From Cyanobacteriota bacterium (GTDB lineage: Bacteria > Cyanobacteriota > Cyanobacteriia > PCC-6307 > Cyanobiaceae): DNA of 39,590 nt. Both the position numbers and the translations under genes were made by a program. The notes beneath the pieces were generated by a model. The model was given only the letters and a program-made list of their open reading frames with translations. It ran no database searches and was not told the origin of the DNA. This document shows, piece after piece, positions 2,844 to 24,443 of the stretch (position 1 is the first letter of the stretch; each line of letters opens with the position of its first letter). The stretch lies in the NCBI GenBank assembly GCA_026389335.1, contig JAPLIB010000004.1:1-39590 (forward strand), written 5' to 3'.

Positions 2844-3197
2844 ATGATCCCCAACCACGGCAAAGCGTTGAGCGAAACCCCCACTTTTTTGATCACGGCC
2901 AGCCTCAAGGGCACCAGCCACGCCTTCCCCTGCCGCCCCGACCAGACCGTGCTGGCGGCTGCGGAGGCGGCGGGGGTGCCGTTGCCCAGTTCCTGCTGCT
3001 CGGGGGTGTGCACCACCTGCGCGGCGAAATTGGTGAGTGGCACGGTGCACCAGCCCGATGCCATGGGCGTCAGGGCGGAACTTCGGGAACAGGGCTACGC
3101 GCTGCTGTGCGTGTCCTATCCCCGCAGCGATCTGGAGTTGCTGGCCGGCCAGGAAGATGCCCTCTATGAAGCCCAGTTCGGCCAATACCAGAAGTGA
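2844..3197 (+). CDS. Plant-type [2Fe-2S] ferredoxin
   Basis: This encodes 117 residues. Cysteines at about residues 51, 56, 59 and 89 give C-x4-C-x2-C-x29-C, the exact spacing of plant/cyanobacterial [2Fe-2S] ferredoxins; an extra cysteine at 52 sits beside the first ligand. The fold signature is clear (FPCRPDQTVLAAAEAAGV before the cluster loop, then YALLCVSYPRSDLEL). Such ferredoxins carry single electrons at low potential to soluble acceptors; this is one of the divergent paralogues rather than canonical photosynthetic PetF, because the N-terminus is extended and the C-terminus runs past the usual end. Its TGA overlaps the GTG start of the next gene (GTGA), so the two are translationally coupled. 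Confidence 0.9.
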   Translation: MIPNHGKALSETPTFLITASLKGTSHAFPCRPDQTVLAAAEAAGVPLPSSCCSGVCTTCAAKLVSGTVHQPDAMGVRAELREQGYALLCVSYPRSDLELLAGQEDALYEAQFGQYQK

Positions 3198-3571
3198 GGC
3201 TGGAGCCTCTGCAGGCCTGGTTCCAGCCGCGGCCGGGGCCGCTGTTGCCCCAGCTGCGGCCCGCTCTGCTGGCCCGCGCCCAGGCGCAGGCCGGGCCCGG
3301 GGCGCAACTGTTGCGCTGGGCGATCACCGCCGCTGAAGCGGAGCGGGGCCTACGGATTGAAGCGGTGGTGCTGGTGGGGGTGCTGGCGGAGCAGCCGGCC
3401 GGACAACGGCTGGAGCAACCGGCACTCGACACCCAGGCCAACGGCCTGCCCGAATGCGGTGCCGACAGCCTCCAGCCTCCTCGGCTGCCTGGACCAGGGA
3501 ACAAAGGCAGCAGGCCTGTGGCACCGGCACCCACTGCCGACCGGGCCGCCACTGCAGCCTCGGCACCGTGA
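3194..3571 (+). CDS. Small hypothetical protein coupled to ferredoxin
   Basis: This encodes 125 residues from GTG 3194, whose GTGA overlaps the ferredoxin stop by four bases. The first half is Pro/Leu/Ala/Arg-rich and probably helical (about residues 10-60, ending in IEAVVLVGVL); the second half is low-complexity and unlikely to be folded. I do not recognise a family. The tight overlap with the ferredoxin upstream and the 10-bp spacing to the DUF3326 gene downstream argue that it is a real gene in a three-gene operon. The first half may be the conserved part; the C-terminal half may be lineage-specific. Confidence 0.55.
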   Translation: MRLEPLQAWFQPRPGPLLPQLRPALLARAQAQAGPGAQLLRWAITAAEAERGLRIEAVVLVGVLAEQPAGQRLEQPALDTQANGLPECGADSLQPPRLPGPGNKGSRPVAPAPTADRAATAASAP

Positions 3572-3581
3572 GCGCGGGACC

Positions 3582-4745
3582 ATGAGCCCTGACCAGCCAC
3601 CCCTGCCCACCTTGCTGGTGATCCCCACCGGTGTGGGCTGCACCGTGGGCGGCTATGCGGGCGATGGCCTGCCGGCGGCCCGGTTGCTGGCGGCGGCCAG
3701 CGGCTGCCTGATCACCCATCCCAATGTGATGAATGGCGCCTCCCTCTACTGGAGCGATCGCCGCATCCACTACGTGGAGGGCTGGGCCCTCGATCGCTTT
3801 GCGGGCGGCGAACTGGCCCTGGCGCCGGTGGCCGGTCGCAAGGTGGGGCTGCTGCTGGATGCGGGCATCGAGCCGGAGCTGCGCCAGCGCCAGCTTCAGG
3901 CGGCGGCTGCCTGTCGGGCCACCCTGGGCCTGGCGATCGGCCCGATGGTCACGACCGACGTGCCCCTGGGGGTGGGCCTGAGCCTGGGCCCCAGCGGGGC
4001 CAGCTGGGGCACCCTGGGGCGCCCTGATGCCTTGCTGCGCGCCGGCGAGCAGCTGGTGGCCGCAGGCGCCAACGCCATTGCCGTGGTGGCTCGCTTCCCC
4101 GATGATCCTGGCAGCGAGGCCCTGGCCGCCTACCGCCATGGCGACGGCGTCGATGCCCTGGCAGGCGCCGAGGCGGTGATCAGCCATCTGCTGGTGCAGC
4201 ACCTGGGCATCCCCTGTGCCCATGCGCCGGCCCTGGCACCCTTGCCCTTGGATCCCGATCTCGATCCCAGGGCAGCGGCCGAGGAACTAGGCCATACCTT
4301 TTTGCCCTGCGTGCTGGTGGGATTGAGCCGGGCGCCGGATCTGGTACCGCTGGCTGGGGCCCCGTTGGCTGGTGCCGGCTGGTCATCGGCCCAGCGTTTC
4401 GCCGCCGCGACAGGGGCGCGGGGGAGCGGCCCCCTGCTGCTGGCCTCAGACCTCGGCGCCGTGGTGGCTCCCGCCGCTGCCCTCGGCGGCGAAGCCGTGC
4501 TGGCCTGCGCTGAGCGGGGGGTGCCCCTGATTGCGGTGCAGAATTCCTGCCTGCTGCAGGTGTCGGCGGCGGCCCTGGGCCTGGAGGTGCTGACAGCGGC
4601 CAGCTATGCCGAGGCCGCCGGGTTGGTGCTGGCCCTGCGGGAAGGGATCGATCCGGCGGCGCTGCGGCGACCGTTGCTGCCTTGGATCGAGCTCCCGAGC
4701 CGCTCAGCTACCCCAGCAGGATCCGATGCATCAGCGGCAAAGTGA
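3582..4745 (+). CDS. DUF3326 family protein
   Basis: This encodes 387 residues. ATG 3582 is 10 bp after the previous stop and gives an N-terminus typical of the family (LLVIPTGVGCTVGGYAGD). Other family-like segments are LITHPNVMNGASLYW, the Gly-rich LGVGLSLGPSGASWGTLGRP, and AVQNSCLLQV near the C-terminus. The family is widespread in cyanobacteria and plant chloroplasts; its biochemical function is not established as far as I know. No transmembrane segment or signal peptide is seen, so it is probably cytoplasmic. The 3' end overlaps the convergent AEC transporter gene by 38 bp (4708-4745). Confidence 0.85.
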   Translation: MSPDQPPLPTLLVIPTGVGCTVGGYAGDGLPAARLLAAASGCLITHPNVMNGASLYWSDRRIHYVEGWALDRFAGGELALAPVAGRKVGLLLDAGIEPELRQRQLQAAAACRATLGLAIGPMVTTDVPLGVGLSLGPSGASWGTLGRPDALLRAGEQLVAAGANAIAVVARFPDDPGSEALAAYRHGDGVDALAGAEAVISHLLVQHLGIPCAHAPALAPLPLDPDLDPRAAAEELGHTFLPCVLVGLSRAPDLVPLAGAPLAGAGWSSAQRFAAATGARGSGPLLLASDLGAVVAPAAALGGEAVLACAERGVPLIAVQNSCLLQVSAAALGLEVLTAASYAEAAGLVLALREGIDPAALRRPLLPWIELPSRSATPAGSDASAAK

Positions 4746-5658
4746 GAAAGGAGACCCCGGTGCTGATCAGGATCGCCAGGGCGAGTCGTTCGCCATTCAG
4801 GCCGAGGCGCTCCGCGATCACAACAGTGAGCAACTGGCTCGGCATCGCCCCCTCCATCACCACCGCCTCGAGATAGGGCGGTGCCAGCTGCACCAGCCTG
4901 GCGATCGCCAGGATCAGCACCGGTGAGAGCACCAGCTTCACCGCCGCCGCCAGCAGCAGGGGGCCCGGGCGTGCCAGGGCCCTGAAGCGCAGCCCCAGCC
5001 CCAGGCTCAGCATCATCAAGCCGGAAACCGCCTGGCCCAGCAGGTTGGTGGCCTGCAGCAGGAAGGCCGGCACCGCCAGACCACTGCCACGCCAGATCAG
5101 GCCGATGAGCAGAGCCCACAGGGCCGGCATCTGTCCAATCTCGCGGGCCATCCGCCAGGCCGGCGCCAGCACCGCACTCAGGCCTGGGGGCGCTGGCGTT
5201 GACGCCCTCAGATAGCGGGCGCCTGTACTCAGACCCACGCTCAGATTCAACGGCGTGGTGGTCACTTCACAGAGCACAGCCACCTTGGCGGCCTGGAGTC
5301 CCAGGGCCGGGAACAGCCCCTGCAGCACCGGCAGTCCCAGATAGGTGACATTGCCAAAACTGCTGGCCAGCACCAGGGCACCCTTCTCAGCGGGCGCCAG
5401 GGGAATGCGGCTGAAGAGGGCGATGGCCAGTCCCATGGTGGCCAGAGTGCCGAGCAGCATCGTGAGCGGAATCCGCCATAGCTCGTCGCCCGATTGCACC
5501 TGCACCACCACGCGAAAGACCAGGGCGGGCAACAGCACCTGCAGCACCAGCAGCCCGATGATCCGCCGGGCCGTAGCGCTGTCGGCCTCGCCGAGCGTGA
5601 AGCGCAGCAGGCTGCCGATGCCGATGATCAGGGCCAGGGAGAGAAAGACTGAGGTCAA
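4708..5658 (-). CDS. AEC-family (auxin efflux carrier-like) transporter
   Basis: This encodes 316 residues with about ten hydrophobic membrane segments in the five-plus-five layout of the AEC/BASS-like superfamily. The N-terminus (SLALIIGIGSLLR) and the segment SFGNVTYLGLPVLQGLFP, with its Asn/Gly/Pro-containing central crossover, are typical. Such carriers export or import small organic acids; the substrate cannot be read from sequence. It lies downstream of alanine dehydrogenase on the same strand with a 99-bp gap, so an amino- or keto-acid substrate is conceivable but only by context. The 3' end overlaps the convergent DUF3326 gene. Confidence 0.85.
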   Translation of the reverse strand: MTSVFLSLALIIGIGSLLRFTLGEADSATARRIIGLLVLQVLLPALVFRVVVQVQSGDELWRIPLTMLLGTLATMGLAIALFSRIPLAPAEKGALVLASSFGNVTYLGLPVLQGLFPALGLQAAKVAVLCEVTTTPLNLSVGLSTGARYLRASTPAPPGLSAVLAPAWRMAREIGQMPALWALLIGLIWRGSGLAVPAFLLQATNLLGQAVSGLMMLSLGLGLRFRALARPGPLLLAAAVKLVLSPVLILAIARLVQLAPPYLEAVVMEGAMPSQLLTVVIAERLGLNGERLALAILISTGVSFLTLPLMHRILLG

Positions 5659-15301: not shown

Positions 15302-17236
15302 TCAGGCGCCCGTTCCGGGCGCTTTTTTGTTGGACTCCGGTGGTGCCTGGGCTGGTGCCTGGGCTGCCGGCAAGGCTTGGATCAGGGCGGGGCAGGCCCC
15401 CAACAGCGAGAGGAGCTGCTGGCGTCTGGCGACACTCAGGGCCGGATCCAGGCCGATGGCAATCCAGGCCGCCAAGGGATCACGGCGGGCTTCCACCTGA
15501 AGCCAGCCTGGCTTGGGCCGCTGTAGGTGCAACTGTTGGCGCAACTGCTCGATCAGGGTGCGGCGGCGCTTCAGCTGGCGGCTGATGGTCTCCGGTGCGC
15601 TGCAGAGCTGGCGGGCCTTCTGCTGCAGGGCCTGCTGGTCCGTGGATGTCGCCAGCTTCGCCGGCTGCGAGCGGGGCCAGGGCAGCAGCAGCGCCGTGGC
15701 TCCCACCCCAACCCCAGCCAGCAGCAGGGCCAGACCGAGCACCGCAACGGCGCGTGGTTTCCTGAGCAGCGAAGGCTCCGGAGCGGATGGCTGTTGCGAG
15801 CCGGTGGGCGCGTCCTGGTGCATCGAACCAGAGCCAGAACCAGAGCCAAGGGCAGCCGGGCTTGGCGCGGCTGCACTGACCAAGACGGCACTGAACGAGG
15901 CGGCACTGACCAAGACGGCACTGACCGAGGCGGCGGCAGACCTGCCTGGAGATTCTGGGGTCGCCATCGATCCAGCGGGCTCAGGGGCAACCGCTGTTTC
16001 TGTTGCGAGGGCTGTTTCAGCGGAGAAGGCTGCCTCTGTTGTGAAAGCGGCCTCGACTGAGAGCGCTGCCTTGGTTGGCCAGGCTGTCTGGGCTGGGGTG
16101 GTGGGCTGCGTTGGAGCGCCCCTGTCGATGCCGAGGGCTGTCTCTGAGGTGATGGCTGTCTCTGAGGTGGAGGTGCGGTCAGGGGTGGCGGGCGCCGCAT
16201 CGCTGACAGCCCTTTGATCGACGACGCCCGAGCCTGCCGCTTGCGTGGACTGAGCGCCCGCCTCCGGCTTGGCTCTGGCTGCTGGCTGAGTCCTGGTCGC
16301 CGCCGCCGAGTCGGCCCATGGACTGGCCGCGGCCAACGCAGGAGCCTGCTGCTCAGGCGCGGATTCCAGCCGGCCGATCGCCACACTCACATCATCGCCA
16401 CTGCCCTCGCGGCTGATGCGATCGAGACTGGCGGCCAGCTGGGCCCCCCGGGGTGCCTCAGCGGCGTCGGGCATGCCCGCCAACCAGCTGGCCAGCAGCA
16501 GGAAATCCGGGTCGCTGGCACAGGATTTACGCAGGCCATCGGTGCTCAGCAGCAAGGCGAAGGGGGCGGCCGCTGCGGCGATCGGCCAGAGGCCGCTGCG
16601 GCCGGCGAACAGGCTGGCGGCCTCGCGCTGGCAGAGGCTGCAGGTGGCTTCGCCGGCGGCGATCTCCTGCTGTTCTTCACTCAGCAGACTGGCCTGGCCG
16701 TCGCCGTCGATCCGCACCAGATCCCAGTCCCCCAGACCGGTCTGGCCCCACCAGCGGGGTGTCATCAGCACCAGACCGAGGGTACTGCCGTACAGCAAGG
16801 GCTGGAAGGTTGGGGTGGTGGCCTCGCACGCTTGTACCGCCGGTCCTGCGGCCGCAGCGGCCTCGGGCTTGCTGGCGTTCCAATCGGCGGCGATCGCCGC
16901 CATCCAGGCGGTGGTGATCGCCGCCGGCAGCTCCCGGCTCAGCCAGGCGGCCCACTGCGCCCGGATGGCCTCGTCGTCGCCGGCGCCGAGCCGGCGCTGG
17001 GACACGGCCGCCTGCACCAGCGCCAGCGCCCGCTCGCAGGCCAGCCGGCTGCCCCGCTCGCTCAGCCGATAACGGGAGCCGCCATGGCCATCGGCCACGG
17101 CCATCACCCACACGGGCTGGCCATCGAGGCTGAGGCCCCAGCCGACGGCCGAGGCGTCCTGGCAGGGCTGCTGGCGCCGCCGGTGGGCGGCACCACGGCG
17201 GCTGCAATGGATCGGCTCCGCCCAGCTGCTCACCAC
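15302..17236 (-). CDS. Membrane-anchored PP2C-type Ser/Thr protein phosphatase
   Basis: This encodes 644 residues from GTG 17236, overlapping the vWA gene by 7 bp. Residues about 1-290 are a PP2C/PPM domain: CQDAS near residue 27, the metal-site VADGHGG at 48-52, LLLSTDGL, and GSGDDVSVAI at the end. PPM enzymes remove phosphate from Ser/Thr using two metal ions. Then come roughly 200 low-complexity residues (Ala/Thr/Glu/Ser) with 5- and 6-residue repeats, one transmembrane helix (AVAVLGLALLLAGVGVGATA), and about 120 residues with a Gln/Leu-rich helical part. The catalytic domain should face the cytoplasm. With the vWA protein and the kinase it forms the triad expected to reverse that kinase's phosphorylation. 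Confidence 0.88.
   Translation of the reverse strand: MVSSWAEPIHCSRRGAAHRRRQQPCQDASAVGWGLSLDGQPVWVMAVADGHGGSRYRLSERGSRLACERALALVQAAVSQRRLGAGDDEAIRAQWAAWLSRELPAAITTAWMAAIAADWNASKPEAAAAAGPAVQACEATTPTFQPLLYGSTLGLVLMTPRWWGQTGLGDWDLVRIDGDGQASLLSEEQQEIAAGEATCSLCQREAASLFAGRSGLWPIAAAAAPFALLLSTDGLRKSCASDPDFLLLASWLAGMPDAAEAPRGAQLAASLDRISREGSGDDVSVAIGRLESAPEQQAPALAAASPWADSAAATRTQPAARAKPEAGAQSTQAAGSGVVDQRAVSDAAPATPDRTSTSETAITSETALGIDRGAPTQPTTPAQTAWPTKAALSVEAAFTTEAAFSAETALATETAVAPEPAGSMATPESPGRSAAASVSAVLVSAASFSAVLVSAAAPSPAALGSGSGSGSMHQDAPTGSQQPSAPEPSLLRKPRAVAVLGLALLLAGVGVGATALLLPWPRSQPAKLATSTDQQALQQKARQLCSAPETISRQLKRRRTLIEQLRQQLHLQRPKPGWLQVEARRDPLAAWIAIGLDPALSVARRQQLLSLLGACPALIQALPAAQAPAQAPPESNKKAPGTGA
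15306..15328 (+). terminator. Rho-independent terminator of PSRP-3
   Basis: GCGCCC, a five-base loop (gttcc), GGGCGC, then six T's. It lies 130 bp past the PSRP-3 stop. The same bases on the other strand encode the last residues of the PP2C protein, so the 3' ends overlap. Confidence 0.85.
15873..15932. repeat. 15-bp tandem repeat (4 copies) in the PP2C linker
   Basis: Four units beginning gcactga(c/a)c alternate between two versions (ending caagacg or gaggcg). They encode SAVLV/SAASF-type pentapeptides on the minus strand, just N-terminal to the membrane helix. Confidence 0.85.
15991..16166. repeat. 18-bp degenerate tandem repeats in the PP2C linker
   Basis: From 15991 to about 16090 roughly five 18-bp units encode hexapeptides of the type A-hydrophobic-(S/T)-x-E-(A/T) on the minus strand. 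A further pair near 16131-16166 (ctgtctctgaggtg...) encodes TSETAI and TSETAL. Copies are diverged but keep frame. Confidence 0.75.
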
Positions 17237-18018
17237 ACCAGCGGCCCAACGTCGTCGCTGGGATCGAGCACGGTGGGCGGCAGATCCGGCAGGGGAATGT
17301 TGCTGCCGTCAGCGGCCTGAACCGTGCGGCTCGCCGGCATGGAGGCCGCATTCACCACCGCTGTCGAAGCCCATTGGATGTACTGGGCCAGGGAGGTGGC
17401 ATTGCTGGCCTGCAGCGGCCGTCGCGGTGAACGGCCGCTGGCGGCGGGGCGGGGCGCCAGGCCGCTGGCCCCGGCAATCTCGCCAGCCGGCAACGGTGCC
17501 GCCTGTGGTTCATTGCCGATGAACTGCTGCAGCACCTCCAGATCGGCATCGTGGCCCATGGCAATCGCCAGCCGTACCGCCTTCTGGGCCCAGGGACAAC
17601 GCATCAGGGTCGTCAGGCCGGCCTGGAAGTTGTCGGTGGGCTGGCCATCGGAGATCAGCACCAGCACCGGCGGCAGGGCCCGCTCCTCCATCGGGGGAGT
17701 GCTCAATTGGGCCGCCACCAGCTCGAGGGCTTCACCCATGGCGGTGATGCCCCCCGCCTGCAGGTCCTGCCACTGCAACTGCTCCACCGGCGTCGGCGTC
17801 GCCACGTGCCAGAGAGCCCGATCAGCGAAGCTCACCGCCCGCACCAGCACCCGGGCTTCCGGGTTGTCGCGGGCCACGGCCGCCATGCCCGGCAGCGATT
17901 GCCGAATCGCCTGATTGAGCGCCTGCATCTTGCCCTGGGCGGCCATCGAGCCGGAACAGTCGCAGAGGTAGATGAAGTGCAGGGGGCGATTGGCCAGCCG
18001 GACGTTGGGGAAGGACAT
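17230..18018 (-). CDS. TerY-like von Willebrand factor A domain protein
   Basis: This encodes 262 residues from ATG 18018. The vWA domain fills residues about 10-190 and keeps the metal-ion-dependent adhesion site: DCSGSM (DxSxS, residues 20-24), a Thr in GGITAMGEAL, and an Asp in LISDGQPTDN. MIDAS vWA domains bind a divalent cation and partner proteins. The short cytoplasmic form beside a PP2C phosphatase and a zinc-ribbon kinase matches the TerY-P triad known from comparative genomics of tellurium-resistance-type stress systems. The Pro-rich tail may be a docking segment. Its TGA lies inside the PP2C start region, so the two are coupled. The 576 bp upstream separate it from the kinase. Confidence 0.87.
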   Translation of the reverse strand: MSFPNVRLANRPLHFIYLCDCSGSMAAQGKMQALNQAIRQSLPGMAAVARDNPEARVLVRAVSFADRALWHVATPTPVEQLQWQDLQAGGITAMGEALELVAAQLSTPPMEERALPPVLVLISDGQPTDNFQAGLTTLMRCPWAQKAVRLAIAMGHDADLEVLQQFIGNEPQAAPLPAGEIAGASGLAPRPAASGRSPRRPLQASNATSLAQYIQWASTAVVNAASMPASRTVQAADGSNIPLPDLPPTVLDPSDDVGPLVW

Positions 18019-18594
18019 CAGCAGGAGAGAACGGGGCGAAAAGCGGCGGCTGGACGGGCGATCGCGACGGGGTGGCTTCGAGAGCGGGGCTGAACCGACA
18101 GCAGCCAAAGTCTGGACGCATCGTGGCCCCGAAGCAGGGCACCGCGCCAACGGGCGCCATGGGCTGAAGAGCAAAAGGCTTCTGGATGCGCCAGCAAGAT
18201 CCGCCTCGCCGGCAGGGCCGCCGGCTCCCGCCCAGCCAGATCCTCCGGCGCCGTTGAGGGAGATCGCTGGCTGGGGACACAGTCCGTACCGGTCTGGGAC
18301 ATCAAGACAGGCTGGCTTGAGGGCGCCTCGAACCATCCTGAATCGCCATCGTTGCGCTCCGCCAGATTGATGGCAGCCACTTGCTGACCCTGACCAAGGG
18401 TGAGCGCCCCAGGTGATGGTTCAGGTGCCCTGGATCAGGCAGACAACGCCGCTGCTGCTCTCGCGAATCAGGCGTCTTGAGGCGAAAGGCTGGCAAAGAC
18501 TCGGCGGGGCGGGCAGGGGCCCTGGCCCCAGTCAGCCACGGATTTCAACCCAACGGATTTCAACTCAGCGGAATTCAACTCAACGGATTTCAAC
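18019..18594. other. 576-bp gap between kinase and vWA genes
   Basis: Open frames on both strands are short and do not resemble proteins. The gap probably carries the promoter of the vWA-PP2C pair, though I could not locate clear boxes. Its kinase-proximal end (18540-18594) is a 15-bp tandem repeat. Confidence 0.45.
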
Positions 18595-18599
18595 TCAGC
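18540..18599. repeat. 15-bp tandem repeat (4 copies) at the kinase 3' end
   Basis: Four units of the form ggatttcaac(c/t)ca(a/g)c lie at 18540, 18555, 18570 and 18585, differing at one to three positions. The last copy contains the kinase stop codon (TGA, 18595-18597), so the array is otherwise untranslated in the kinase frame. Confidence 0.9.
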
Positions 18600-19962
18600 G
18601 GCTTTCGGCTTCGCCGTTGCAGAAGCCGTCGCGGGTCACCCGTTCCATAACGCCGTGGCGGCTGTTGACGCGCCGCAGGGCCACGAGGCTGCAGCTCCTG
18701 CCGGGCTCCACCGCCAGGCGGCGGCCGTCTTCCAGTTCCACCTCCCAGATGGCATCACTGAGGTTGCACAGCCCCAGCAGCGTCGGATCACTGGGATGGG
18801 CCGTGATCCGGGCCAGGGGCTGGTCCAGGGCCAGCGGCAGCAGTCGATCGAGATGGTGCGCCTGAATCTCGTTGCCGGCGGCGATCGCCACCAGGCCCCG
18901 GGGCAGCCGCAGCCAGGGGCCCTGGGGCAGTGGATTGCCGCAGCTCCAGCAGCCGGCGGCGCTCCCGATCGCCGGAAAGGCCTCCTGGCCGCAGGACGGG
19001 CAGAGCACACGCCGATCGAGGCTGGCGGCCAGGGCGGCGGTCCACTCGCCAGTGAGGGCACGCCGGCTCGGCTGTTTAAGGCCCGGGCCGAAGGTCTGCA
19101 GGAACAGCCGTTGCAGCGGTTCGGGATAGATCGGCCAGGTGATCAGGGCGGCGGCATGTTCAATCGGATCGGGCCGGTTGCGCGTGTCGATCGGATCGAA
19201 GATGAACACCGGATCTTCGCCGTAGAGGCGGCGCCGGGCCGGTTCGTCGAGGCAGCGGATCGCCTGCTCCAGGGCCCCTTTGAGCGGGTCATGGCGGGTT
19301 AGCAGCCGGAAGATCAGCACCGCCAGAGAAAACAGATCGCTGCTGGCTCCGGGCCGGGCCTGACCCAGCAGGATTTCCGGCGCCATGAAGCCCGGTGTGC
19401 CCAGCACGCTGCCGGGATCGCGGCCATCCACCGCCACGTTGTCGTTGTCGCAGATCAGGATGCGGCCGCTGCCGGGCTCGAGGAACAGGTTCCCCAGCGA
19501 GATGTCCTTGTAACAAAGGCCGCGCAGGTGCAAGGCGTGGAAGGCGTCGGCCAGGAAGAAGGCGGCCCGCAGCACGTTCTGCAGGCTGATCTCGATCCGA
19601 CCACCGGCATGGGCGCTGGCGCCCAGGAACGAGGGTGGTCGCAGCCGCATCAGGTAGCCGAAGCTCGGCTCCCGCAGGCGGATCTGGCTGCGACTGGCGG
19701 CAGTGGCACCCACCAGGGCAATCGGCCAGAGGAAGGCGCTGTTGGGGCTGGAGGCCTGGATGCTCTCCTCCAGGCGCCGCTGCAGATTCGGATCACGAGC
19801 GATGCAGGCCGGCCAATACCACTTCAGGGCCAGGCGTTCGCCACCCAGTTCCACCGCATACACCTGGCCCTGACTCCCCCCCCCGACGCCCTCCAGAATG
19901 CGCAGCTCTCGGGAGAGGCCCTCGAGCTGGAGGACGGCACCGATCGGCAGGATCCAGGTCAA
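18595..19962 (-). CDS. Ser/Thr protein kinase with C-terminal zinc ribbon (TerY-P type)
   Basis: This encodes 455 residues, apparently from TTG 19962; no ATG or GTG lies in frame between the FHA gene stop (19987) and it. Kinase motifs: Gly loop GGGSQGQVY (28-35), Lys 47 in LALKWYW, catalytic loop YKDISLGN (151-158; HRD changed to YKD, Asp 153 and Asn 158 kept), DND at 172-174 in place of DFG, and GTPGFMAPE. After the kinase domain come YGEDPVFIFDP and a four-Cys zinc ribbon (C321, C324, C338, C341), then a C-terminal domain of about 100 residues. Key catalytic residues remain, so activity is plausible despite the altered motifs. The likely partners are the FHA proteins upstream and the PP2C downstream. 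Confidence 0.9.
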   Translation of the reverse strand: MTWILPIGAVLQLEGLSRELRILEGVGGGSQGQVYAVELGGERLALKWYWPACIARDPNLQRRLEESIQASSPNSAFLWPIALVGATAASRSQIRLREPSFGYLMRLRPPSFLGASAHAGGRIEISLQNVLRAAFFLADAFHALHLRGLCYKDISLGNLFLEPGSGRILICDNDNVAVDGRDPGSVLGTPGFMAPEILLGQARPGASSDLFSLAVLIFRLLTRHDPLKGALEQAIRCLDEPARRRLYGEDPVFIFDPIDTRNRPDPIEHAAALITWPIYPEPLQRLFLQTFGPGLKQPSRRALTGEWTAALAASLDRRVLCPSCGQEAFPAIGSAAGCWSCGNPLPQGPWLRLPRGLVAIAAGNEIQAHHLDRLLPLALDQPLARITAHPSDPTLLGLCNLSDAIWEVELEDGRRLAVEPGRSCSLVALRRVNSRHGVMERVTRDGFCNGEAESR

Positions 19963-19986
19963 GGGATGGGGACGCGCCGGGCCGGA

Positions 19987-20649
19987 TCAGGGCCCCTGAC
20001 TCTGGCCGATCGCCCGGCGGATGCCATTGCGGTGAGCCAGGGCTGTGAGCCGGTTGCGGAAGCGATGGCGATGGGCCAGGCCGTCGTTGGTCACCACCTC
20101 CAGCAGGTGCTCCTTACGGGCACCCAGCAGCATCCAGCCCGCCAGGGCCAGCAGCTCCAGGGGCCAGAACAGCAGCGGCAGGGGCAGCAGCAGCAGGCCG
20201 CCCAGGCAGAGCAACAACCACCAGCTGAAGATGTGGGGATAGAGGGCGCGGCTTTCCACCCGCACGGAGCGAATCGCCGCCGCGCTCAGGCGCTGATCGC
20301 CCACATCGATGCTGAGGGGATCGGGCCCTGCCGCCTGCGCGGCGCCGCAGCGGAACACCAACACAGGTCCGCTGCTGCCGAGGCGAATCTCATCGCCGTC
20401 GCCCAGCGGGCGGCACTGGCGCACCCGCACCCCTTCCAGCCAGGTGCCATTGGCGCTGCCCAGATCGCACACCAACCACTGGTTGCCCGTGCGGGAACGG
20501 CGCACCTGGGCATGCTGACGCGACAGCCCCGCCGCCTCCGGCAGGCAGAGGCCGTTGTCCGGAGCCCGCCCGATGGTGAGGCCCTTGGCGGGGTCCAGGT
20601 TGACCCGCCGCCGCGGATTGTCCCGCAGTTCGAGGCTGGCGAACTGCAT
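19987..20649 (-). CDS. FHA-domain membrane protein
   Basis: This encodes 220 residues from ATG 20649. FHA domains bind phosphothreonine; here the N-terminal domain (about residues 20-100) has the expected GR (LTIGRAPDN), SRQH (LSRQHAQV) and NGT (GSANGTWLEG) motifs. A hydrophobic hairpin follows (FSWWLLLCLGGLLLLPLPLL and a second segment), then a basic helical tail. The ATG overlaps the stop of the gene upstream by one base (TGATG), and the kinase begins shortly after its stop in the same frame. It likely recruits a phosphorylated partner to the membrane; the kinase itself or the FHA-PBP neighbour are candidates. Confidence 0.87.
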   Translation of the reverse strand: MQFASLELRDNPRRRVNLDPAKGLTIGRAPDNGLCLPEAAGLSRQHAQVRRSRTGNQWLVCDLGSANGTWLEGVRVRQCRPLGDGDEIRLGSSGPVLVFRCGAAQAAGPDPLSIDVGDQRLSAAAIRSVRVESRALYPHIFSWWLLLCLGGLLLLPLPLLFWPLELLALAGWMLLGARKEHLLEVVTNDGLAHRHRFRNRLTALAHRNGIRRAIGQSQGP

Positions 20650-20969
20650 CAGCCCCCACCCCCAGGACCACCGCCACTACGGCGCTGCCACCCGTGGCGC
20701 CGCCACCCGTGGCCCTGCCACCAGTGACGCCAGTCGGCCGCAATCTCGGCGCGCAGGCCCGGTTCCCCTTCCCGCCAGGGCCTCACCCGGCCGGGGAACA
20801 ACAGGGCGATCGCCGCCAGCAGCAGGCCGATCAGCAGCATCAGCAGCAGCACCCAGCCCGGTAGGGCCCCGACCCAGGTGGCCGCAAAGCTGGCCCGGAT
20901 CGCGTAGACGGCCACGGTGAGGGCAATCCAGATGCGGAAGGGGGCCCAGGGATCCCGGCGACGCTCCAC
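20649..20969 (-). CDS. Small membrane protein heading the FHA-kinase operon
   Basis: This encodes 106 residues from GTG 20969. It has two hydrophobic segments (IWIALTVAVYAIRASFAA and WVLLLMLLIGLLLAAIALLF) and a Trp/Arg/Gly-rich basic tail (WRHWWQGHGW...). I do not recognise a family. Its stop is fused to the FHA gene start (TGATG) and it lies 53 bp from the divergent PBP start, so it is the first gene of the minus-strand unit and shares a promoter region with the PBP. Confidence 0.65.
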   Translation of the reverse strand: MERRRDPWAPFRIWIALTVAVYAIRASFAATWVGALPGWVLLLMLLIGLLLAAIALLFPGRVRPWREGEPGLRAEIAADWRHWWQGHGWRRHGWQRRSGGGPGGGG

Positions 20970-21022
20970 CCAGGGGCTCGTGATCGTTGTGGCTAGCGTA
21001 TCGGCTCCTCCAGATCCCAGGG
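20970..21022. promoter_or_regulatory. Shared divergent promoter region of the FHA-kinase operon and FHA-PBP
   Basis: Only 53 bp separate the GTG start of the minus-strand operon from the ATG of the PBP gene, so promoters must overlap each other or the coding ends. Boxes were not clear. The arrangement implies coordinated expression. Confidence 0.45.
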
Positions 21023-23260
21023 ATGCCCGAGCCGGTCGCGCCCGGTGCCGCCTGGTCCGCCCTTGGGCGCGCCTTGCTCAGCGGCCCTGTGGCCAGGCGG
21101 CCCCAGGCGCTGGCCAAGGCCCTGCGGCGTCTGCGCCAGCGCCGCGCCTGGTTGGAGCTCTGGCAGGGGGACATATGCCGCCAACGCCTGCCGCTGGGGG
21201 AGGGCCGCTATCGCATCGGCCGGGATCCCCAGCTGGAGCTGCCGGTTGAGGGCAACGGCATCAGCCGGGTGCACGGAATTGTCGAGAAGCAGCGACCCCA
21301 GGCCCGGGACTATCGCTTCGAGGACTTCGGCTCTGCCAATGGAGTGTTCTGGCAAGACCGACGGATCCGCAGCATCGATCTGCGCCATGGCGATCAGCTG
21401 CAGCTCGGCTCCCCTTTGCGGGCAGAGGCCCCCACCCTGCGCTACTGCCAACCGCGCAGCCCGCTGGAACAGGCCATCCACTGGGGTGGGGTGGGCCTGC
21501 TGGGGGGCTCGGCGATTGCTCTCTCGCTGCTGCTGGCGGCGACCACCGTCGCTGGTGGCTCCAGCATCCGCGCCATCGGCGGGCCCGTGCGCATCGTCGC
21601 CGACAACGGCCGCCAGATCGATGCGGCCGAGGGGGCGCCCGTGGCGCTGCCGTCCCTGGACGCCTATCCCCTGCAGTTGCGTCAGGCCTTGATGGCATCG
21701 GAGGAGGCGCGCTTCGGCTGGAACAGCGGCATCGATCTGTTCGGCACCCTGCGATCAGCCCTGCGCGGCACCGGTGGCGGCAGCGGTCTCACCCAGCAGG
21801 TGGCCCGCATGTATTACCCCGCCGTCGGCAATGACGTGAGTGTGGCCCGCAAGCTGCGGGAGCTGGGGGTGGCCTGGCAGCTGGAGGCGGGCTTCAGCAA
21901 GAACCGCATCCTCAAGATGTATCTCGATCGGGCCTATCTCGGCCTGGGAACTGAGGGTTTCGAGCAGGCGGCCCAGCTGTATTTCCGCAAGTCAGCCCGC
22001 AAGCTCGATGTCTCGGAAGCCGCTTTTCTGGTCGGTCTGCTGCCCAATCCCAATGGCTACAGCCCCTGCAACAGCAAGGATCCGACCGCCGGACGGGAGC
22101 GCCGCGATCTGGTGTTGCGGCTGATGCAGCAGGAGGGCTATCTCTCCGATCAGCAGCTGATCGATGCCCTGCGCCGCCCGCTGAACATCGACCCCTCCGC
22201 CTGCCGGGAGTCGACCCTGATCAGTTATCCCTATTTCAGCGACTACGTGCTCGGTGAACTGGAGGGGCGGCGCTTCGGCCTCAAGCTCAGGGATGAGCAG
22301 CTGGGTGGCAACTACCAGGTGGTGAGCACGATTGATCCCCGCATGCAGGCGATTGCCCAGAAACAGCTGGGCCGCTTCCTGCAGGGGCCGGCCGCCGGCG
22401 TGGGGCTCACCCAGGGAGCCCTGATCTCCCTCGATATCGCCACCGGCGAGATCCTGGCCTATGTGGGCGGCGGCGACTATGCCCGCTCCAGCTTCGATCG
22501 GGTGCAGGCGCTGCGGCAGCCAGGCTCCACCTTCAAGCTGTTCACCTATCTGGCGGCGCTCACGGCCGATCTGGATCTCAACGAACCCGTCTCCTGTGCG
22601 CCGTTGGGCTATGTGGCCGGTTGCCAGCACGGGCCGGTGGGCCCGACGGGACGGATCAGCTACGCCGATGGTCTCACCTTTTCGGAGAACGTAGTGGCCC
22701 TGCGGCTGGCCGAACGGGTGGGACTGAACAAGGTGATCGAACAGGCGCGGCGGCTGGGCATCAGCACCCCGCTCGATCCCAGTTACACCATGGTGTTGGG
22801 CGGCAAGGAGACCTACCTCTACGAGCTGGCCAGGGCCTATGCCGTGGTGGCCAACGGCGGCCGCTCGGTACCGATGCATGGTGTCCGCCGCATCTACGAC
22901 CTGGGCATCTGTCCTTCGATCGACACCCTGGCCCAATGTCCGGCCAGCGGGGTCACCACCCCGATCGGCGAGCGGTCGCGGCAGCTGCTGGAGCCGGCGG
23001 TGGCCGCCGCCATGGACCGGCAACTGCGCCGGGTTGTGAGTGAGGGCACCGGGCGGGCCGCGGCCGGCGTCGCCGATGCCCGTGGCAAGACCGGTACCAC
23101 CAACGACGGCGTTGATGTGCTGTTCATCGGCTATTCGCCGGCGCTGGGGATCCTCACCGGCATCTGGATGGGCAACGACGACAACACTCCAGCCCAGGCG
23201 GCTTCCGGCGCCCTGGTGGCCGATCTCTGGGGGCGCTACATGCGGGCTGTGGCCAGCTGA
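21023..23260 (+). CDS. Class A penicillin-binding protein with N-terminal FHA domain
   Basis: This encodes 745 residues from ATG 21023. Order: a basic N-terminal region, an FHA domain (about residues 45-135: YRIGRDPQL, ISRVHGIV, GSANGVFW), one membrane helix (GVGLLGGSAIALSLLLAATT), a GT51 glycosyltransferase domain (ASEEARFGWNSGID, GSGLTQQVARMYY, RAYLGLGTEGFEQAA), then the transpeptidase with PGSTFKLF (SxxK), SENVVAL (SxN) and GKTGTTND (KTG). It should polymerise and cross-link peptidoglycan outside the membrane, with the FHA domain in the cytoplasm as a phosphothreonine sensor. It is divergent from the FHA-kinase operon across 53 bp, so the kinase and PP2C are the obvious candidates to control it. 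Confidence 0.95.
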   Translation: MPEPVAPGAAWSALGRALLSGPVARRPQALAKALRRLRQRRAWLELWQGDICRQRLPLGEGRYRIGRDPQLELPVEGNGISRVHGIVEKQRPQARDYRFEDFGSANGVFWQDRRIRSIDLRHGDQLQLGSPLRAEAPTLRYCQPRSPLEQAIHWGGVGLLGGSAIALSLLLAATTVAGGSSIRAIGGPVRIVADNGRQIDAAEGAPVALPSLDAYPLQLRQALMASEEARFGWNSGIDLFGTLRSALRGTGGGSGLTQQVARMYYPAVGNDVSVARKLRELGVAWQLEAGFSKNRILKMYLDRAYLGLGTEGFEQAAQLYFRKSARKLDVSEAAFLVGLLPNPNGYSPCNSKDPTAGRERRDLVLRLMQQEGYLSDQQLIDALRRPLNIDPSACRESTLISYPYFSDYVLGELEGRRFGLKLRDEQLGGNYQVVSTIDPRMQAIAQKQLGRFLQGPAAGVGLTQGALISLDIATGEILAYVGGGDYARSSFDRVQALRQPGSTFKLFTYLAALTADLDLNEPVSCAPLGYVAGCQHGPVGPTGRISYADGLTFSENVVALRLAERVGLNKVIEQARRLGISTPLDPSYTMVLGGKETYLYELARAYAVVANGGRSVPMHGVRRIYDLGICPSIDTLAQCPASGVTTPIGERSRQLLEPAVAAAMDRQLRRVVSEGTGRAAAGVADARGKTGTTNDGVDVLFIGYSPALGILTGIWMGNDDNTPAQAASGALVADLWGRYMRAVAS

Positions 23261-23282: not shown

Positions 23283-24443
23283 TCAGCCCCCCGGCCGGAC
23301 CTTGAAGGCGGCCTCGGCCAGATCCGAGCCCCAGGTCAGCAGTCCCCAGCCCAGTCCCAGCAGCGTGCCCCACCACCAGGTGCTGCACCAGAGTCGCTCG
23401 CTCGGTCGGCTGGCATCCGTGGGCGCCGCGCGGGGCAACTGCCAGCCGAGCTGCAGCGCTCCGTACACCACCAGCAACACCCAGGCGGGGATCGATTCGG
23501 GGCCCAGGCGGAAGCCCAGTTCCTGCCAGCGCAGCAGGCTGAGGATTGCCGCCATGCTGATCAGGGCCGCGATCGCCCCCGTCGCTCCGCACCACTGCCG
23601 TTGGGCCACTCCCAGCCGCCTGGCCAACAGGGCGGCCAGGGCGTTGGTGGCCAGGCTCATGAGGCTGTAGCGCAGCACCACATCCGCCAGCGACAGGGGC
23701 GAGGGGCCCAGCAGCACCAGCAACAGCAGCACGTTGACCAGCGCTTCGGCGTGGCGGCCATGGATCCAGGGAGAGCTGAGCCAGCACCAGGCCCGGCGCG
23801 GATCGCCACTGCGGCTGAGGTTCAGCAGACCGCGCCGTCTCAGCCGCCGCAGCGGTCCGAGGCTCAGCGCCTGAACCAGGGCCAGGCTGAGGGCCAGCAC
23901 CACGCCACCACTCCAGCTCCAGCGATCGAACACGGCCTGGTCGAGTTTGCCGGCGGCCCAGGCCAGCACCAGGCTGAAGCTGGCGGCCAGGGCCAGTCCC
24001 GCTCCCAAAGCCTGGAGGTCGCGGCCAAAACCTGGCCCGAGCACCTGCCGCCAGGGGCGACGGCTGGGGGCGGGTGGCTGCTGATCAGCTGACTCCGACG
24101 CCTCAACAGCGGGCTGGGGCTGGGGGCTGGCGGCGGCGGGCGGCGTGATGCCGGTGGCGGCTTCGATCAGGTCGTGCAGTTCGGCCAGCACCGCCGGCGT
24201 GTAGGTGCGAGCCAGGTGGCTGGAGAGCGCTTCCACCGCCGTGACGCTGGGTTGGGCGCGGCGCTGCAGCAGCTGACGCAGCAGCGGCTGGCTGGCAAGA
24301 TCGCGCACGGGCCCCTTGAGGCCCTCCTCCGCCCCGAGGGCATCCACCAGCCGGTTAGCGAGGGCCTGGCCGTTGTCGAGGCCAAGATTGCCGCTCTCCA
24401 GCCAGCTGCGCAGCTTCAGGCCCAGTTCGCGCCCCGTTCCCAT
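23283..24443 (-). CDS. Rhomboid-like multi-pass membrane protein, probably not a protease
   Basis: This encodes 386 residues from ATG 24443. Residues about 1-140 are soluble and helical with a Pro/Ala/Gln-rich linker; the rest has six or more hydrophobic segments. The order of WIHGRHAEALVNVLLLLV and later WCGATGAIAALIS resembles rhomboid segments TM2 and TM4, but the catalytic Ser of GxSG is Thr (GATG) and the His four residues before the Asn is Glu. That suggests a rhomboid-like pseudoprotease, or an unrelated membrane family. It converges on the PBP gene with 22 bp between stops and lies 24 bp after the transaldolase gene start side on the same strand. Confidence 0.6.
   Translation of the reverse strand: MGTGRELGLKLRSWLESGNLGLDNGQALANRLVDALGAEEGLKGPVRDLASQPLLRQLLQRRAQPSVTAVEALSSHLARTYTPAVLAELHDLIEAATGITPPAAASPQPQPAVEASESADQQPPAPSRRPWRQVLGPGFGRDLQALGAGLALAASFSLVLAWAAGKLDQAVFDRWSWSGGVVLALSLALVQALSLGPLRRLRRRGLLNLSRSGDPRRAWCWLSSPWIHGRHAEALVNVLLLLVLLGPSPLSLADVVLRYSLMSLATNALAALLARRLGVAQRQWCGATGAIAALISMAAILSLLRWQELGFRLGPESIPAWVLLVVYGALQLGWQLPRAAPTDASRPSERLWCSTWWWGTLLGLGWGLLTWGSDLAEAAFKVRPGG

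Follow-up and report, generated by a model that had tools for sequence, protein, structure and literature searches.

Background

PMC11090510 defines a TerY-P triad as a TerY-like vWA protein, a PP2C phosphatase and a kinase fused to a zinc ribbon. Such triads have been described beside tellurite, restriction and defence genes, and their output there is unclear. Here we analyse a gene block of this kind in a stretch of 39,590 nucleotides from a bacterium of the family Cyanobiaceae (contig JAPLIB010000004.1, our C130, of assembly GCA_026389335.1; 4.05 Mb, 171 contigs), which we call the window. Five genes lie on the minus strand, transcribed in the order small membrane protein, FHA membrane protein, kinase, vWA protein and PP2C phosphatase, and a class A penicillin-binding protein (PBP) with an FHA domain of its own lies divergently on the plus strand, 53 bp away. 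The block is like the triad of PMC11090510 in its vWA protein and in the C-terminal zinc ribbon of its kinase, and it also has a PP2C phosphatase, whose link to the plasmid form is weak. It differs in its partners, which are a PBP and FHA membrane proteins where Ter or DNA-processing genes would be usual, and in a phosphatase with a predicted membrane helix and a tail domain.

Our preferred reading, to which we give a probability of about 0.45, is that the block is a TerY-P switch whose target has become a dedicated class A peptidoglycan synthase, reached by way of the PBP's FHA domain, and that a membrane phosphatase with an outer domain resets it.

Other described systems share parts of this design. 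The PknB, PstP and FHA proteins of actinobacteria likewise tie a kinase, a PP2C phosphatase and an FHA reader to peptidoglycan synthesis; in the block, by comparison, the kinase is soluble and without PASTA repeats, the phosphatase bears a possible outer domain, and the PBP has the reader built into its own chain. The PpkA, PppA and Fha pathway of type VI secretion is also a set of kinase, PP2C and FHA protein, whereas no secretion gene was noted in the block (the genome was not searched for them). PpkA and PppA are mentioned in PMC6213207, which also covers the Rv1747-type ABC transporter, a membrane effector with FHA domains served by a kinase as in the block, where the effector is instead a wall synthase.

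TerY-P triads, FHA domains on membrane effectors and kinase control of wall synthesis are thus already known kinds. A literature search, whose coverage excluded most subscription journals and the founding TerY-P paper (Anantharaman 2012), returned no title or abstract on a TerY-P triad together with a PBP, nor on the six-gene combination, the phosphatase tail or the kinase FHA-fold domain. A first-pass annotation, made from the letters of the window, had proposed the six-gene arrangement; added here are the phosphatase's membrane helix and tail domain, the FHA-fold domain at the end of the kinase and the motif in the vWA tail.

An FHA-bearing class A PBP

The PBP gene (21023..23260, plus strand) encodes an N-terminal FHA domain (21209-21409), one hydrophobic segment, and transglycosylase and transpeptidase domains. 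Its open reading frame (ORF, 20987-23257) matched the Pfam families FHA (E 4e-12), Transgly (E 2.7e-41) and Transpeptidase (E 1e-21). The catalytic residues E239, S514, K517, S566, N568 and K701 are kept in all but at most one lettered row of the alignment, and by its domains and these residues the protein is a class A PBP. The FHA pocket residues R79, S93, R94, H96 and N118 (numbered from TTG 20987) are found in 54 of 54 rows, including that of a transporter (locus L148) which the same model picked up. The domain therefore has the Arg, Ser and Asn, with the structural His, by which a phosphothreonine-reading FHA domain would be recognised.

FHA-bearing synthases are not confined to this block. 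At E 1e-5, the FHA region of the PBP matched in 149 of the 386 genomes sampled from the phylum. Most of these matches fall in open frames 700 to 820 residues long, and not each match was verified as a PBP. Three FHA domains were found by Pfam in the genome of the window, two in the block and the third in a second FHA-PBP on contig C3. We collected 22 loci of this second type (L102, L103 and 20 others, 11-12 kb each). The second-type PBP has the same domain order as the locus PBP, differs in having no triad nearby, and in all 22 cases keeps the pocket residues R, S, H and N. In a tree restricted to 13 locus and 22 second-type PBPs, which left out other FHA-PBP paralogues of the phylum, the locus PBPs form one separate clade with support 100/100. 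The idea that the locus PBP is a recent copy of the second FHA-PBP is not supported by these separate clades. From the sequences, an FHA-bearing synthase appears widespread in cyanobacteria, and the paralogue that is coupled to a triad is a divergent one; since FHA-PBPs are common and the second type lacks a triad, the coupling is the unusual part.

The pocket also bears on an improbable alternative, in which the FHA domains only place proteins: partners would be bound without phosphorylation, the synthase would be gathered at a site, and the triad would act elsewhere. The variable pocket of the FHA membrane protein and the lack of the usual motifs in the FHA-fold domain of the kinase (both described below) fit such a role, against which stand the invariant pocket of the PBP and the retention of R, S, H and N in the 22 second-type PBPs.

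Conservation of the block and its co-occurrence with the PBP

Co-occurrence was assessed in 201 family genomes, an even sample of a larger group. The kinase matched at E 0.001 in 38 of them; one weak match (genome G171, E 3.9e-8) was dropped from the pairing, leaving 37 strong ones. Strong matches to the N-terminal part of the PBP (E < 1e-50) were found in 35 of the 201 genomes, all inside these 37. The kinase occurs without the PBP only in G029 and G120, which belong to one genus and match the Prochlorococcus records among our loci (L148, L146); in G029 the triad lies on a 20-kb stretch without the FHA protein, the small protein or the PBP, and in G120 the kinase is close to a contig end. In a sample of the phylum, the kinase was found at E 1e-30 in 9 of 386 genomes, all of this family. 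A search with the Pfam family Pkinase matched 178 of the 201 family genomes at E 0.001, 98 of them above the cut-off; because weak matches are mixed in, we draw no conclusion from it on whether the FHA-PBP follows the presence of kinases. G171, which is without the block, has a weak match to the kinase (27%) and one to the vWA protein (29%) close together on one contig (L100, G171:C58), perhaps another triad.

A scan of named genomes gave 156 confirmed stretches, and the best 80 of the 156 were used as the locus set: 55 close loci (L112-L165 and L167, at least 57% identity) and 25 distant loci (37 to 43%). The close loci are not independent, as L144 and L150 share the name of one metagenome-assembled genome (MAG) and further close relatives are included. 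By component models all six genes are present in 49 of the 55. Four of the six incomplete loci are cut by contig ends (L112, L113, L157, L159) and the other two are the Prochlorococcus loci L146 and L148, of which L146 (Prochlorococcus sp. AG-412-I05) is too short a stretch for its gene content to be judged. The small-protein gene of L157 was missed by the ORF model and detected by tblastn in its counterpart L097. The same gene order and strands are seen in 48 of the 49 complete loci, and L126 deviates only through an over-long FHA ORF. Carriers of the block include Synechococcus sp. WH 5701 (L164) and Vulcanococcus limneticus (L136). One close locus, L114 (CALPNT020000002.1), is titled as a Bifidobacterium breve MAG and bears the cyanobacterial block at 91% kinase identity; its title or bin is probably wrong for this reason.

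Most close loci share flanking genes with the window, namely those for an ATP synthase subunit, a rhomboid-like protein, PSRP-3, a HAD protein and a transaldolase, so part of the linkage within the block is plain synteny. None of these five was found at L092, L094 (the same contig as L155), L098, L140, L151, L152 and L156, where the six genes stand in the same order; the five are missing from L121, L128 and L159 as well, but these stretches are short. The block keeps its order where the flanks differ, and the arrangement is not confined to one strain. Confinement to this strain, or FHA domains without the pocket residues, would have spoken against the first-pass proposal; for the PBP neither is the case. 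A chance neighbourhood is ruled out by the co-occurrence and by the order retained where flanks differ. That the genes are merely inherited together without a joint function, as the flanks shared by most close loci could suggest, is very improbable, as the order persists where flanks differ and no PBP orthologue occurs without the kinase among the 201 genomes.

In most close loci the gene for the rhomboid-like membrane protein (23283-24443, minus strand; Pfam Rhomboid E 4.2e-7) separates the PBP gene from that of the transaldolase. It was considered as a member of the block and dropped, because at L092, L094 and L098 it was not found next to the six genes.

Relation to the TerY-P triad

By tblastn, homologues of the kinase and the vWA protein were found on many Klebsiella-type plasmids (vWA E 5e-23), and one plasmid region carries vWA, TerD, vWA, TerY-C protein, PP2C and kinase genes. 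Scores of the locus-family models against plasmid triads are given in bits, since the search covered eight proteins only. Against the Klebsiella plasmid triad they were 110.9 for the kinase, 63.4 for the best vWA protein and 12.5 for PP2C; against a Prevotella plasmid triad they were 265.3, 134.6 and 73.9, respectively. The homology to the plasmid triad places the kinase and the vWA protein of the block in the TerY-P type as judged from these model scores, and the link of the PP2C phosphatase to the plasmid form is weak. The first-pass claim of a TerY-P triad holds for kinase and vWA protein, whose plasmid homologues have TerD among them; the phosphatase reaches 73.9 bits against the Prevotella triad and only 12.5 against the Klebsiella one. 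The vWA protein (17230..18018, minus strand) gave a Pfam VWA match in ORF 17233-18336 (E 1.7e-5), and its metal-site residues D19, S21, S23, T91 and D123 (numbered from codon 18015) are present in 53 of 53 rows.

Ter or DNA-processing genes, whose linkage is usual for TerY-P and not strictly defining, are absent from the six genes of the block. The absence of TerD, reported before for the window, extends to the whole assembly, while TerC, named in the same statement, was not searched for. PADLOC gave a weak TerY match of E 0.025 and otherwise generic kinase matches, and on this result a known defence system was rejected.

These results bear on the suggestion that the block is a stress or anti-phage TerY-P module in which the PBP is an effector that alters or halts the wall under attack, and not part of housekeeping control. 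Triads of this type adjoin restriction and DNA-processing genes and TerY-P-like modules act in defence, according to PMC11090510 and PMC4978471, and the block is present in part of the family only (37 of 201) and in more than one context. We consider the suggestion improbable, given that no TerD was found in the assembly, that PADLOC offered no good TerY match, and that most close loci share chromosomal flanks, unlike a defence island.

The phosphatase and its tail domain

The phosphatase gene (15302..17236, minus strand, GTG start) encodes an N-terminal catalytic domain, a long linker, a hydrophobic segment and a tail domain, and its ORF 15305-17236 matched Pfam PP2C_2 (E 9.5e-24). The metal residues D27, D49, D233, D281 and D282 are present in 53 of 53 rows. 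The hydrophobic segment (residues 499-517, 15686..15742) has a hydropathy of 2.32 and is followed by the tail domain (15305..15685) with two conserved cysteines, C545 and C615, and a DPLGALIA-like motif. Both cysteines are invariant in 22 of 22 aligned phosphatases, L160 being left out because of a wrong frame. The linker, at about 15750-16300, is repetitive and rich in Ala, Thr, Glu and Ser with ETALATETA-like words, and is far shorter in most relatives.

The tail motif was found in 45 of 52 close phosphatases. All 45 have a Cys on either side of it, and 41 of them have a 19-residue stretch with a hydropathy of at least 1.5. The seven close phosphatases without the motif comprise three cut by contig ends (L120, L127, L139), L126 and L130, and the two from Prochlorococcus. 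A frame change is likely in L126 and L130, because their phosphatase ORFs run into transaldolase-like sequence and a second ORF matches the PP2C model. The Prochlorococcus triads, which are without the PBP, have phosphatase tails of only 8 and 16 residues. With the same pattern the motif was found in none of the 17 distant phosphatases scored; two further ones, not scored by the pattern, end soon after the catalytic motif. Five distant phosphatases have longer tails (88-188 residues), among them L175 with a strong hydrophobic stretch. As the motif is present in 45 of 52 close and 0 of 17 distant phosphatases and the Prochlorococcus tails are short, the tail goes with the PBP as far as these sequences tell. 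The tail domain probably lies outside the membrane, according to the predicted topology.

A conserved threonine in the vWA tail

The vWA protein ends in PLP(D/E)LPPTxxD, shortly ahead of a terminal Trp. LPPT is present in the vWA tail of all 52 close loci, Prochlorococcus included, and in none of 19 distant ones, and the position +3 of the Thr is Asp in 48 of the 52 and Gly in the other four. Some FHA domains prefer Asp at +3. Among the conserved threonines, that of LPPTxxD is the best candidate for an FHA dock; in the window the putative phosphothreonine ligand is the TVLD at 17263..17274 (minus strand). The activation loop of the kinase was considered as an alternative dock and rejected, as of four conserved kinase threonines only T189 (GTPGF) is near the loop, and from its sequence context T189 is probably structural.

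The kinase

The Ser/Thr kinase gene (18595..19962, minus strand, TTG start) matched Pfam Pkinase in ORF 18598-19962 (E 6.1e-13) and encodes a zinc ribbon (C321, C324, C338, C341; 18940..19002) followed by a beta domain of about 100 residues. Residues K47, D153, N158 and D172 and the four Cys of the ribbon are invariant in 38 of 38 rows, which represent 18 close loci, the window included, and 20 of the 25 distant ones. The model of the kinase, with a predicted local distance difference test (pLDDT) score of 91.8, resembles protein kinases. No PASTA match was found in it by Pfam and no hydrophobic segment by hydropathy; membership of the PASTA kinases (PknB type) was rejected, as there is neither a membrane segment nor PASTA repeats.

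The domain after the ribbon (about residues 346-445, 18628..18927) was not recognised as FHA by sequence. Alignment with hhalign to the FHA domains of the locus gave probabilities of 0.7 and 2.4% (shuffled or reversed controls 0.1 to 0.5%), and FHA was absent among the 25 of 31 Pfam families listed for the kinase tail. Its assignment rests on the predicted structure of tail and ribbon (pLDDT 90.1). The eight best PDB matches by Foldseek (E 0.025 to 0.13, none below 0.001) were all FHA domains, belonging to APLF and PNK. In the VIA comparison most of 50 rows were FHA domains, with a best Z of 9.0 (92 residues, 3.3 A) and a Z of 7.9 for mycobacterial FhaA; a Z of at least 8 was reached by 12 of 999 chains, and a Z below 8 can mean merely a common arrangement. 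By its model the kinase ends in a divergent FHA-fold domain. The pocket motifs GR, SxxH and NG are missing from the tail sequence in the window, and therefore the domain is probably no ordinary phosphothreonine reader. At L168, L171 and L176 another ORF comes after the triad kinase; it is larger, and the kinase model matches it too.

The domains of the kinase enter into the main rival of our reading, in which the PBP is the sensor. Binding of substrate or antibiotic outside would pass through the FHA domain to the kinase and raise a wall-stress alarm on other targets, toward which the zinc ribbon is perhaps used. Such a path could be built from a PBP that unites transglycosylase and transpeptidase domains with a cytoplasmic FHA domain, and from a kinase that itself has a zinc ribbon and an FHA-fold domain; for TerY-P, PMC11090510 suggests that the ribbon has a role with nucleic acids. 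It would, however, make the outer domain of the phosphatase a second sensor, and no target gene was found in the block. We hold this rival to be rather unlikely.

Triads elsewhere and their neighbours

Within the available stretches, the 25 distant loci have the kinase in all cases and the vWA protein and PP2C in 19 each. Pfam searches of 20 chosen neighbours of distant triads found LRR, WD40, ankyrin, TPR, MORN, YARHG, peptidase M20, PHP, DNA polymerase III delta and other families. The cyanobacterial neighbours include an FHA protein, FHA with PrsW protease and RDD (L169), and FHA with an ABC transporter (L175). The Prochlorococcus sp. MIT 0701 locus (L148) has a two-FHA transporter-like protein (2852-5209) about 5 kb from its triad, which resembles the L175 protein; it is flanked by trypsin-like and TPR proteins, and no FHA-PBP is present. 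FHA domains were found somewhere in 25 of 26 of these genomes.

A wider view is tentative, and we rate it well short of even odds: TerY-P triads would be plug-in phosphorylation switches, and which membrane enzyme carries the FHA domain would decide their output. In the wall version the outer sensor would be on the phosphatase, not on the kinase, and the vWA-tail Thr would be the phospho-dock. As part of the same view, the output would be the wall synthase in the window, whereas Prochlorococcus MIT 0701 and Chamaesiphon would have an ABC transporter in this place and Pegethrix an intramembrane protease.

Distant triads at L166, L168, L171, L172, L173, L176 and L181 adjoin LRR, ankyrin, WD40 or TPR repeat proteins, as if each of these triads had a repeat-protein partner of its own. 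Additionally, L173 (13135-13887) and L178 (10795-11544) have ORFs of about 250 residues, 6-10 kb from the kinases, that match the PBP model (E 4e-17 and 7e-18, respectively), perhaps monofunctional transglycosylases.

Proposed working of the block

The gene linkage suggests that the triad would control peptidoglycan synthesis, and we infer phosphorylation, binding, topology, sensing, direction of the signal and effect on the wall. What the sequences themselves show, and what favours this working, is that the six genes are linked and occur together, that catalytic residues and the PBP pocket are conserved, that the phosphatase tail accompanies the PBP, that LPPT marks the close vWA tails, and that second-type FHA-PBPs are without a triad nearby. 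The soluble kinase and the vWA protein would phosphorylate a threonine, most likely that of LPPTxxD in the vWA tail. The FHA domain at the cytoplasmic end of the PBP would bind this phosphothreonine and so join the switch to the synthase, whose activity or placement would be altered. The membrane-held phosphatase with its outer two-cysteine domain would respond to the condition of periplasm or wall and reset the switch accordingly, and the small membrane protein may form a platform at the membrane together with the FHA membrane protein.

Several observations weigh against this working. LPPT is also retained in both Prochlorococcus triads, which are without the PBP, and 6 of the 19 distant vWA tails contain TxxD by itself. 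The kinase has YKD for HRD and DND for DFG, so its activity is putative. The phosphatase of the window has a second hydrophobic stretch (residues 435-453, hydropathy 2.01), and if both stretches cross the membrane the tail would lie inside. Furthermore, none of the 22 second-type FHA-PBP loci has a triad gene within its 11-12 kb, 23 of the 25 distant loci have no FHA gene by component models (two do), and the genome of L178 is without any Pfam FHA match. The pocket of the FHA membrane protein is intact in the window and degenerate in many relatives: the Arg is kept in 47 of 54 rows, the Ser in 46 of 54 and the Asn in 25 of 55, one row being the L148 transporter. Two FHA readers had been proposed at first pass; the invariant pocket agrees with this for the PBP, and the FHA membrane protein cannot count as a reader throughout, because its pocket Asn is kept in fewer than half of the rows and replaced by Asp in 21.

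Gene models and remaining features

Pfam matches and start codons confirm the arrangement first proposed, with its strands, domains and divergence across 53 bp. The gap between the divergent genes (20970..21022, 53 bp, measured from start codons) presupposes ATG 21023 for the PBP and GTG 20969 for the small protein. The small membrane protein (20649..20969, minus strand, GTG start) is conserved in the block and has a hydrophobic segment at residues 40-58 with a hydropathy of 3.21; for its ORF 20652-20969 Pfam gave only a match below the cut-off (E 0.085). The FHA membrane protein (19987..20649, minus strand) has its FHA domain at 20377-20577 and a hydrophobic segment at residues 143-161, and ORF 19990-20649 matched Pfam FHA with E 3.3e-17. 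The vWA gene probably starts at ATG 18018 rather than at 18336, because the vWA ORFs of relatives (e.g. L091) begin at the equivalent place, and this start leaves 576 bp between kinase and vWA genes (18019-18594). Short repeats like GTTGAAATCCGTTGA occur in this gap, which in most relatives is a few dozen bases long, and about 370 in L113 and L114.

Implications

The likely output of the block is an enzyme with a standard assay, polymerisation and cross-linking of peptidoglycan, and the chemistry of the triad thereby becomes testable. If our reading is true, there would be a route from Ser/Thr phosphorylation to the wall in which the phospho-reader sits on a class A PBP, and a possible outer domain on the phosphatase, not on the kinase. 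The widespread second FHA-PBP raises a question for the whole phylum, namely which phosphothreonine is read. The linkage of the six genes suggests that in this group of small cyanobacteria protein phosphorylation may control wall growth in an unfamiliar way.

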